Position numbers and translations under genes: made by a program. Shown piece after piece: positions 21,010 to 24,112 of a DNA stretch of 45,663 bases. Numbering within the stretch: position 1 is the first letter of the stretch; each line of letters opens with the position of its first letter. The DNA lies in the NCBI GenBank assembly GCA_016290315.1, contig JAEETK010000007.1, positions 1 to 45,663 on the forward strand, in the 5' to 3' direction. Under the pieces are notes generated by a model, which was not told the origin of the DNA, did not search any database, and worked only from the letters and a program-made list of their open reading frames with translations. The DNA is from Candidatus Saccharimonadota bacterium. Lineage in GTDB: Bacteria > Patescibacteriota > Saccharimonadia > Saccharimonadales > Saccharimonadaceae.

Positions 21010-22038
21010 ATGGCAACAACCAAAGCCAAAACGGCCAAGAAATCTGGCGCCAAAAAGACTTCCGCGAAGTCTAAAGCTGCGTCTTCGAAGCCAAAAACTG
21101 TCAAAGCAGTTGAAGCCAAAACTACCAAAAAAGCCAAAGTTACCACGGTGGATAAGGTTCAAGATGAGGCAGAAAAGGTAGCAGAGGAAAAAGTCAAAAT
21201 AGTATCCGCAAAGTCACACCCAATCAAAGAGTTCTTTGCGCGCAAGTTTGATGCTTCCGAAAATATTTTGACAATATTTAAGGACACAAAAATCATTGGA
21301 GCAATCATTGGCGAGATTATTGGTACTGGCGTTATCGCAGCTATCGCATTAACGCTCGGCCTGTTTAATCCACTATATTTGATTTTTGGCTATCTCGGCG
21401 TAACGTTAGCCGTCTTCACGCTTTCTGGCGCACATCTTAATCCGGTCATTACGGTCGGCATGATGGCTAGTCGCCGCGTTTCAGCCATTCGTGGTGTTCT
21501 TTATTTAATTGCACAAGTCATCGGCGCATGGGCAGGCTTTGCAATCGTCAACGGCTTTTATAATGCCGGCATCGCATCTGGTAATATTGCCGCCGACAAT
21601 ACTACACTACCGGCGCTCACTGCAACTAGTGATTTGGCCGCCACAACCGAAGGCTTTAGCTTCTTCTGGACAATCACAATATTGGAGTTCGTAGGTGCGA
21701 TCATTATCGCGTTCTTCTACGCTCGTGCGCTCGCCTACAAGCGTAGTGCTTTTACGTTTGCAGCAACCGTATCTACTGGCGTCTTTTTAGCATTACTATT
21801 CGCAGTCGTCACCACTGGTACCTACTTGGGTATTCAAGAAAATTCATTCGTATTGAACCCAGCAGTCGCATTTATGTATGGCGTATTGCCAGGTAGCGCG
21901 GAAGGTTTTGATGCCTTAATGAACGCATTAATGCCGATGCTTGTTACCTATGTATTGTTCCCAGTACTAGGTGGCGTAGTTGGCTTCTATTTGTCCGATT
22001 TCGCTTCAAAGCTAAGTGGCAAAGAGTTAGCGAATTAA
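21010..22038 (+). CDS. Atypical MIP/aquaporin-family channel, Lys-rich N-terminus
   Basis: 342 aa. Residues 1-75 are a histone-H1-like Lys/Ala/Ser/Thr extension (AKKSGAKKTSAKSKAASSK). Residues about 90-340 are a six-TM MIP domain: GEIIGTGVIAAIA, SGAHLNPVITVGMMASRR (first NPA box as NPV), FVLNPAVAFMYG (second NPA box). The Arg that normally follows the second NPA (NPAR), part of the ar/R selectivity filter, is Val here. The loops keep the SGxHxNP signature. It may conduct water, glycerol or other small solutes. SD AAGGAGAGG before ATG; own terminator at 22054. Confidence 0.85.
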   Translation: MATTKAKTAKKSGAKKTSAKSKAASSKPKTVKAVEAKTTKKAKVTTVDKVQDEAEKVAEEKVKIVSAKSHPIKEFFARKFDASENILTIFKDTKIIGAIIGEIIGTGVIAAIALTLGLFNPLYLIFGYLGVTLAVFTLSGAHLNPVITVGMMASRRVSAIRGVLYLIAQVIGAWAGFAIVNGFYNAGIASGNIAADNTTLPALTATSDLAATTEGFSFFWTITILEFVGAIIIAFFYARALAYKRSAFTFAATVSTGVFLALLFAVVTTGTYLGIQENSFVLNPAVAFMYGVLPGSAEGFDALMNALMPMLVTYVLFPVLGGVVGFYLSDFASKLSGKELAN

Positions 22039-22158: not shown

Positions 22159-22737
22159 ATGTATCAAGATTTTAATAATACACCAACCCCTACGTCGACA
22201 ATTCAACCTCAGATGACGGATAAACCAGTCACCGAAGAAAAGGCAAAGCGAAAAAAGATTATTAAAATTGCCTCTGTGTTTTTCTTTATTTTTGCCGTAA
22301 TTATAGTCGTCTGCGTATTGTTAAGCTTAGATCCGACAATAATCTATAGAGGCGGCGACGATTTTGGCAGCATGGAGGCTGAACCGGTTACGTCTTATAA
22401 ACCTAAGCATGTAACGCCGGGTTTTACTGCTAATGATCTTCTCGGGAGTTGGAGTTGCAGCAACGACAAATCTTTTATATTCACTAATGATTCCTTTACT
22501 TCTTTAAATAAGCTCGATGATGACGAGGTTGGCTATTCTGGTAGCTATTCATATGATCCAGATACTAATCTGATTACTTTCGATATCGACTCGACTGTCC
22601 AAAATGGCGAAAAGAAGCCTATAACGGAGAACGATACGTGGCAAAATGAATATTCGGTTTCAAAGGAAGAAGATAAACTCTTACTTTACCCAGACGACGA
22701 CAACGCGTATGTTTGCGAAAGGAAACTAGATGACTAA
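22159..22737 (+). CDS. Hypothetical single-TM extracytoplasmic protein
   Basis: 192 aa, no family recognised. Cytoplasmic Pro/Thr-rich tail, Lys stretch (KAKRKKIIKI), TM about 38-57 (VFFFIFAVIIVVCVLLSL), then an outer domain of about 130 aa with beta character around GSWSCSNDKSFIFTNDSF and VCERKLDD; the two Cys could pair. It looks like a lipocalin-like/META-type small beta domain, but I cannot confirm this. TG-A-TATAAT (22140-22145) lies 13 nt from the ATG, so the leader is very short. The stop overlaps the next start by 8 nt (ATGACTAA), so the two are a coupled pair. Confidence 0.6.
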   Translation: MYQDFNNTPTPTSTIQPQMTDKPVTEEKAKRKKIIKIASVFFFIFAVIIVVCVLLSLDPTIIYRGGDDFGSMEAEPVTSYKPKHVTPGFTANDLLGSWSCSNDKSFIFTNDSFTSLNKLDDDEVGYSGSYSYDPDTNLITFDIDSTVQNGEKKPITENDTWQNEYSVSKEEDKLLLYPDDDNAYVCERKLDD

Positions 22738-24112
22738 GAAGATTAAGATTATATCATTAATAATTATTGCAGTCTCCTGTTTCTTATTTGCGAAACCAGT
22801 GTCAGCAACAAAGCGCTTGAACTGGCACGACGAATATAAAAGTAAATGGAAAATTATCGACATCAAAAAGGACCAGCTTATTAAACTGATTAACTTCAAG
22901 AATAGCGGCGGTCTAGAAATTGGCGGAACCACAACTAAAGATGATCGCTGGTGCCAAGGCTCTACGATTACACCGAGACATATAGTTTGGGCTAGCTGGA
23001 AAAATAATCATACTGAAGTGCAAATTGTTTTTGCGGACAGGAATCCACCATACCATATCCAGGGTTACGTATCTGGCTATTTCGAGCACGCGCCACTAAC
23101 TTACAACTGGAAGCGCGACGAGGTAGTTGTTGGCGGAGATGGAAACTGGACATATATTAGCGACAAGACCATGAAGAAAACAAGAACCGTCAAACGGAAT
23201 AAGAGAGATTTTGCCTACAATAATAAGCATGACGCCTATAATGTTGGGGATAAATTCTATACCGACGATTGGCATACAGTTTCTGGAATAAAAAGTAACT
23301 CGTTTAAACATGGGCTAATCCCACAGCAGCAGGCCACGTATAATGATTATGTTTATAGAATAGCCAACGATTGGGGGTGTGGCGATTGGCCTAAGCATGG
23401 CAATATGCACTGGGAAGATCAAGATATTTGCTGGCCAGGTCACGGCGGTACCGCTATAATATTCGCCATCAATATTAAAACTGGCGAACTCGAAAAAACC
23501 TTCGTCATAAATACCGATGTCTTGGCCGAGGAGCTCGAAAGTATCTCATTTGACGAAAAGGGTGACATGTATTTGGCCTACAATAAGAGCGGTGCGACTT
23601 TCTATAAAATATCTCATGACGTATTAAATACTTCTCCGTCCGAAGGTGGCAGTATGCCATCGGGCGGCAATAACCCCGATACTGGCGATAACGGCAATTC
23701 TGGTGATTCCGGCAATGACGCATTGAGACGCTCCAAAGAAGCAATGGAGAATCCGCCAGATATTAATATAGCCCCGGACAATGAAATAAGATGCACTTCC
23801 ATCCTCGATCCTTCACTTTGCGAAAGCGATGACGGTTCTGCGATTCAACAAATTCTTATCTTCATAATTGAAACGATGTCAATTGGCGTCGGCACAATCG
23901 GCGCAATCGGCTTTATGCGTTGCGGATACATCATAATGACCGCGCGCGATAATGTCTCAAGCGTCGAAAAGGCGAAAACTCGAATCCTCGAAATAGTTAT
24001 CGGTATTGTTGCATGGGCGCTTCTTGCATCAACAATTTACTTGGTTACGCCGCGCACCGAAGTTGTCGATACGGTTCTGGAAACTGTTGAAGTAATTGAT
24101 TTTTCAAAATAA
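22730..24112 (+). CDS. Secreted protein fused to VirB2/TrbC-like two-TM module
   Basis: 460 aa. Signal peptide 1-26 ending AKPVSA. Residues 27-300 are a Trp/Tyr/Asp/His-rich beta-like domain (possible propeller: FAINIKTGELEKTFVIN, LESISFDEKGDMYLAYN). A Gly/Asn/Asp/Ser linker spans about 303-325. The C-terminus (about 355-460) has two Cys, then two TM helices split by the basic loop TARDNVSSVEKAKTRILE. That layout (TM, AxxN/D, EKAK-R turn, TM, P-x-x) is the one seen in CPR VirB2/TrbC pilin-like proteins. The fusion is unusual. It overlaps the previous gene by 8 nt and ends at the shared hairpin at 24125. Confidence 0.7.
   Translation: MTKKIKIISLIIIAVSCFLFAKPVSATKRLNWHDEYKSKWKIIDIKKDQLIKLINFKNSGGLEIGGTTTKDDRWCQGSTITPRHIVWASWKNNHTEVQIVFADRNPPYHIQGYVSGYFEHAPLTYNWKRDEVVVGGDGNWTYISDKTMKKTRTVKRNKRDFAYNNKHDAYNVGDKFYTDDWHTVSGIKSNSFKHGLIPQQQATYNDYVYRIANDWGCGDWPKHGNMHWEDQDICWPGHGGTAIIFAINIKTGELEKTFVINTDVLAEELESISFDEKGDMYLAYNKSGATFYKISHDVLNTSPSEGGSMPSGGNNPDTGDNGNSGDSGNDALRRSKEAMENPPDINIAPDNEIRCTSILDPSLCESDDGSAIQQILIFIIETMSIGVGTIGAIGFMRCGYIIMTARDNVSSVEKAKTRILEIVIGIVAWALLASTIYLVTPRTEVVDTVLETVEVIDFSK

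Follow-up and report, generated by a model that had tools for sequence, protein, structure and literature searches.

What would an ultrasmall Saccharibacterium do with a beta-propeller fused to a tail that resembles the pilin of a T4SS, and does the product work with that system or simply borrow its membrane segment? The gene that raises this question lies in the window, a stretch of 45,663 nucleotides from a 1.2-Mb Saccharibacterium genome whose relatives among named genome collections include sheep- and yak-rumen genomes. The gene and the T4SS of the same genome are on different contigs (C32 and C10, respectively), and it is not co-encoded with virB4 or virB6.

Layout of the fusion gene and its partner

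The order of parts proposed in a preliminary description (signal peptide, beta-rich domain, Gly/Asn linker and two-helix tail) was recovered from the sequence and from an AlphaFold2 model built on a 16-sequence alignment (Table 1), and the ORF coordinates bear out the 8-nt overlap with an anchored upstream gene. The signal peptide reads as Sec type, with a basic start, a hydrophobic core and VSA/T. A lipoprotein signal peptide (AVSC) was considered and rejected, the Cys not being conserved among aligned relatives. The model places the tail helices at residues 370-404 and 409-439 behind a disordered linker of residues 306-368, and the turn of the hairpin is RDNVSSVEKAKTR.

Table 1. Coordinates of the propeller-pilin fusion gene, its parts and its upstream partner in the window
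Feature	Position	Strand	Basis and remarks
Partner gene, 192 aa: predicted cytoplasmic N-terminal stub, one TM helix, extracellular lipocalin-like beta-barrel	22159..22737	+	ORF list, AlphaFold2
Overlap of partner 3' end and fusion start, 8 nt	22730..22737	+	Coordinates; putative translational coupling
Propeller-pilin fusion gene	22730..24112	+	460 aa, ATG start; ORF list, orthologues, AlphaFold2
Signal peptide, residues 1-26	22730..22807	+	Read from sequence; AlphaFold2 helix 3-19
Beta-propeller domain, residues 39-305	22844..23644	+	AlphaFold2; VIA-align Z 16.3 to glutaminyl cyclase 3mbr
Gly/Asn/Asp-rich disordered linker, residues 306-347	23645..23770	+	pLDDT <50; alignment
Invariant Cys pair C355-C364, N-terminal to hairpin	23792..23821	+	Alignments; common to free array-1 pilins
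Pilin helix 1 (TM1), residues 370-404	23837..23941	+	AlphaFold2; profile alignment
Basic turn ARDNVSSVEKAKTR, residues 405-418	23942..23983	+	Predicted cytoplasmic (or pilus-lumen) loop; A405, A415, K416, R418 invariant
Pilin helix 2 (TM2), residues 419-441	23984..24052	+	AlphaFold2; alignment, profile alignment

An aquaporin-like gene flanks the pair on one side, and the convergent neighbours of the fusion gene were read from their sequences as genes for elongation factor Ts and ribosomal protein S2. The aquaporin-like (MIP) protein itself (21010-22038) has a Lys/Ala-rich N-terminal extension of ~60 residues. Orthologues of the fusion were found at 88-96% identity in three genomes and at 52-53% in a fourth (G016); in G022, G039 and G003 the neighbours and the 8-nt overlap are identical to those of the window, and in G016 the pair is kept between different flanking genes. 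Given orthologues in four genomes and the low dN/dS reported below, this is no chance ORF. Searches of phages and plasmids returned no match, leaving a recent origin from either unsupported.

The domain initially described as beta-rich does have strands throughout (~19 over residues 42-294 of the model) and can now be described more closely as a propeller fold. Confidence (pLDDT) was mostly 80-95 over residues 41-150 and 241-300, with low-confidence stretches at 162-194 and 216-238. When the model was compared with solved structures using VIA-align, the closest folds were bacterial and plant glutaminyl cyclases (Z 14.7-16.3 over 200-210 residues, rmsd 3.3-3.9), the bacterial enzymes giving Z 14.8-16.3 over 200-204 residues at rmsd 3.3-3.4. 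Its classification as a five-bladed propeller comes from the match of this model, weak stretches included, to 3mbr (204 residues aligned, rmsd 3.3) and not from a blade count of its own. Next, at Z ~14, came NHL propellers and the propellers with which staphylococcal phages bind their receptors (5efv, 6v8i). The domain had no Pfam match, and sequence searches, among them one of solved structures with the propeller profile, led to no known family and nothing credible. Binding is a frequent role of such propellers; as the fold matches several classes and no known sequence family, any function assigned to this one is inferred. Within the bacterial family, 21 of 295 genomes and 2 of 61 genera have the domain. 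Five further loci (L075, L076, L077, L078 and L081) hold propeller-like ORFs of 306-703 aa in which a pilin tail was undetected, two of them cut by the end of the locus.

In the model of the partner protein, a TM helix (residues 26-56) precedes a beta-barrel domain, which matched 4gzv at Z 9.3 over 89 residues and many lipocalin-like structures at Z 7-9 (best Foldseek E 0.014). We regard a lipocalin-like fold of the barrel as moderately well supported. The proposal that the two genes form a two-component surface system stands in part: a relative of the partner lies directly upstream of 13 of the 23 propeller-pilin genes, overlapping in 12 (by 8-44 nt in relatives), whereas no recognisable partner accompanies the remaining 10. 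Other fusions have anchored neighbours of their own, with sequences unlike the partner. A stabilising, regulating or protecting role for the partner is plausible.

The pilin-like tail and its conservation

Taken singly, the window protein falls below the cut-off of the T4SS_pilin model (PF18895; 14.6 bits against 26.6) and reaches 9.6 bits with an NCBIfam pilin model. Its membership of the T4SS pilin superfamily comes instead from the family as a whole, in which T4SS_pilin matches 11 of 16 members (best 3.1e-6), TrbC/VirB2 (PF04956) matches nine, and no other family matches more than four. Aligned with hhalign, the tail profile matched the array pilins of the genome with probability 96.3 (E 1.7e-9, 75 columns), and a search of the genome with the tail recovered a free array pilin at E 3.4e-22. 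The nearest match in the genome is a free pilin of 170 aa with 46% identity and, in common with the tail, an IAPDN and Cys-pair start. Across the phylum, the tail profile found matches in 214 of 380 genomes. Sequence searches of solved structures with the tail and array-pilin profiles gave nothing credible and matched no VirB2 structure.

In a tree of 105 pilin domains, supported by SH-aLRT only, the window tail belongs to a clade of 21 rows with SH-aLRT 99, made up of 15 C-terminal fusions and six free pilins, the latter of the first-pilin type of T4SS arrays; the alignment has 111 columns, and its finer branching order should not be relied on. The tail has the features of a VirB2/TrbC pilin, namely a signal peptide, two helices, a short basic turn and, by predicted topology, both ends outside. 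Such a pilin is a small protein of the hairpin alone, whereas this one is 460 aa long and carries a propeller, which makes it a pilin-fusion protein and not a canonical pilin. The VirB2/TrbC-like tail of the preliminary description is thus supported by family profile searches, tree, conservation and paralogous fusions (one of them inside the T4SS array), and the profile searches revealed a pilin relationship where a generic two-TM anchor had been the alternative. On these comparisons we are highly confident that the tail is homologous to VirB2-like pilins.

Among the three closest orthologues, dN/dS was 0.00-0.01 for the hairpin and 0.09-0.12 for the propeller. The partner TM is also unchanged among close orthologues, so that this comparison alone is not decisive for the hairpin. 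Against the distant G018 and G037, the fused hairpin kept 47-49% identity and the free pilin 63-65%, compared to 25-26% for the propeller and 15-23% for the partner TM, indicating that the fused hairpin has been held to its sequence, if somewhat less than the free pilin. Constraint on the hairpin thus appears, from these identities, to exceed what hydrophobicity demands.

The T4SS and other pilin fusions

The genome encodes a genuine T4SS. Contig C10 carries a VirB4-type ATPase (PF19044) with a second large membrane protein nearby, PrgI (PF12666), a phage-lysozyme-type wall hydrolase and a pilin array, close to genes that were read from sequence as dnaA, dnaN and recF. The gene set of C10 agrees with published Patescibacterial systems (PMC12102498, PMC10633639), and S. 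epibionticum cannot grow as an epibiont without its T4SS and the pilin genes belonging to it (PMC10633639). The 170-aa free pilin is the first gene of the array. Divergently beside it lies a virB6-like gene of 935 aa, so called from its position and multiple hydrophobic segments (it had no Pfam match); the same divergent pairing was seen in ~20 loci. The virB6-like gene was present in 44 of the 45 genomes of the genus, which makes co-occurrence of fusion and T4SS within the genus uninformative. A second virB6-like gene (C45:5523-6620, open frame 1111 aa) lies off the T4SS locus, and most genomes of the genus have extra copies. Two multi-domain wall hydrolases with small anchored neighbours, one combining glucosaminidase, GDSL, amidase and C39 domains (L011:1576-4167) and one phage-lysozyme with further domains (L059:11402-13273), are likely VirB1-like in role.

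The window fusion is one member of a widespread class. At least seven pilin fusions, the window gene included, are encoded in its own genome: a 554-aa protein with two Big_2 domains and an SGNH-like domain, which lies within the T4SS array here and likewise in relatives, two with Big_2 and a CHAP/NlpC-like domain, one with Big_2 and C39, one with VanY, and an 818-aa paralogue combining propeller, pilin hairpin, Big_2 and GH114. VanY, GH114, Big_2 and C39 passed Pfam cut-offs, and CHAP, NlpC and DUF4886 scored weakly; we take the DUF4886 of the array fusion to be SGNH-like. The added domains, in this genome enzyme or Ig-like ones, are found N-terminal to the hairpin, C-terminal to it or at both of its ends, as fits a hairpin whose termini are both outside. 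The genome is 8.4% contaminated, and a contamination artefact was rejected on finding the same paralogue set in G022 and G039 (1% contamination). The GH114 paralogue (L010:10694-13150, minus strand, contig C50) follows a partner-gene paralogue, which overlaps it by 11 nt. On the same contig (L010:4412-10494), the two CHAP/NlpC-like fusions adjoin small anchored proteins of 164-245 aa and unrelated sequence, which might inhibit the enzymes or act as their chaperones. Elsewhere in the genus (L026, L027, L030, L031, L033, L019 and L024), the same pilin tail carries a different, Cys-containing N-terminal domain of ~130-200 aa, with no Pfam match in L026, the one scanned.

Of 29 genomes sampled across the phylum, 26 had T4SS_pilin matches, and six besides the window's own had one in an open frame (stop to stop) of at least 400 aa. 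Fusions in distant Patescibacteria carried PKD repeats (1647 and 1097 aa), PG_binding_1 (411 aa) or unknown domains (682, 714 and 976 aa), and several were situated between or beside free pilin genes.

Candidate functions and known systems

We consider it slightly better than an even bet that the fusion works with the T4SS as a surface adhesin or receptor tethered by its pilin module. Display of the propeller at the cell surface, as first proposed, is very likely, as it follows from the predicted topology; a functional link to the T4SS and a host-binding role each seem about evenly balanced. Following Sec export and signal peptide cleavage, the hairpin would insert with its two ends facing outwards and its basic turn inwards, so that the propeller would stand on the surface. 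Being still held to a pilin-like sequence, the hairpin may keep pilin-type contacts and, instead of serving as a bare anchor, join the T4SS, either at the VirB6 platform or as a decorated minor pilin. The propeller might then bind glycans or proteins of the host wall, while sister fusions (CHAP-like, VanY, C39, SGNH-like, GH114) would cleave or alter that wall at the point of contact, and the lipocalin-like partner, probably translated from a shared mRNA, may bind the propeller or make it more stable.

Against membership of the T4SS, a regular pilus may have no room for an N-terminal part of 336 residues, and the gene lies amid housekeeping genes at a distance from the T4SS locus. A T4SS pilus has yet to be observed in Saccharibacteria, and a thick filament observed by cryo-ET in N. 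lyticus was judged unlikely to be one (PMC12206443). The same points, along with the free variation in where domains are added around the hairpin, would suit an old pilin that now just anchors the displayed domain in the membrane and is not involved in T4SS or pilus. Against it stand the very low dN/dS of the hairpin among close orthologues, an identity to distant relatives well above that of the plain TM of the partner, and the fusions found within pilin arrays, and we hold this reading to be possible but rather doubtful. That the two-TM tail is an unrelated anchor merely resembling a pilin was suggested by the weak single-sequence scores; it is already contradicted by the strong match to the genome's own free pilin and by the agreement of family profile matches, tree and constraint, and is very improbable. 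The propeller could also be catalytic, a surface glutaminyl cyclase-like or other enzyme acting on host or own proteins, as the top solved folds, invariant polar residues (e.g. Q76, R104, H120, E270) and the enzyme domains of sister fusions might suggest. However, the domain matches no Pfam family, and phage receptor-binding and NHL propellers score nearly as well, so that fold does not decide function; we consider catalysis unlikely.

More broadly, we tentatively propose that the T4SS pilin of Patescibacteria is an interchangeable scaffold, in which plain pilins of the array and fused pilins from scattered genes arm the T4SS, whether as pilus or stub. If true, the T4SS would carry tools for binding hosts and cutting walls (adhesin-like propellers, Ig/PKD repeats, peptidoglycan-active enzymes). 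To our knowledge, no such armed VirB2-type pilus has been reported. Although Saccharibacteria need their T4SS to live on a host, its role has been called completely unknown (PMC11665869), and another study states that no PrgB-like T4SS adhesins were found in the phylum (PMC12102498). Direct candidates for the missing host-contact factors are the pilins with fused binding and wall-degrading domains, which make the question testable in genetically tractable species.

The pilin superfamily and its arrays were already known; in the open-licence PMC papers searched, we found no description of VirB2-type pilins fused to large extracellular domains. Diderm VirB2/T-pilin and F pilin share the signal peptide, two-helix hairpin and short basic turn, at ~70-120 aa mature or precursor, whereas the window protein has 460 aa, belongs to a monoderm cell and adds a propeller and Cys pair. 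Glutaminyl cyclases (3mbr, 3nol, 2iwa) and the receptor-binding proteins of phages 80alpha and phi11 (6v8i and 5efv) share the propeller fold over nearly the whole domain, but at 10-12% identity, with no sequence-family match and with the membrane hairpin outside the matched part. The VirB2-like arrays of Patescibacteria (Quinonero-Coronel et al. 2025, PMC12102498; Wang et al. 2023, PMC10633639) have the same pilin superfamily (PF18895/PF04956) and kind of T4SS as the window's genome, the window tail belonging with the first pilin of the array; the portions of these papers available describe pilin arrays and mention no fusion to large extracellular domains. The nearest precedent for a propeller-bearing pilin is PilX2 of the T4P-2 pilus of N. 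lyticus TM7x (PMC12206443), likewise a candidate host adhesin of a Saccharibacterium with a beta-propeller on a pilus subunit. PilX2 is, however, a type IV pilin, a minor subunit of another kind of filament, and its RCC1 propeller has seven blades, whereas the window protein joins a propeller of another family to a VirB2-type hairpin.
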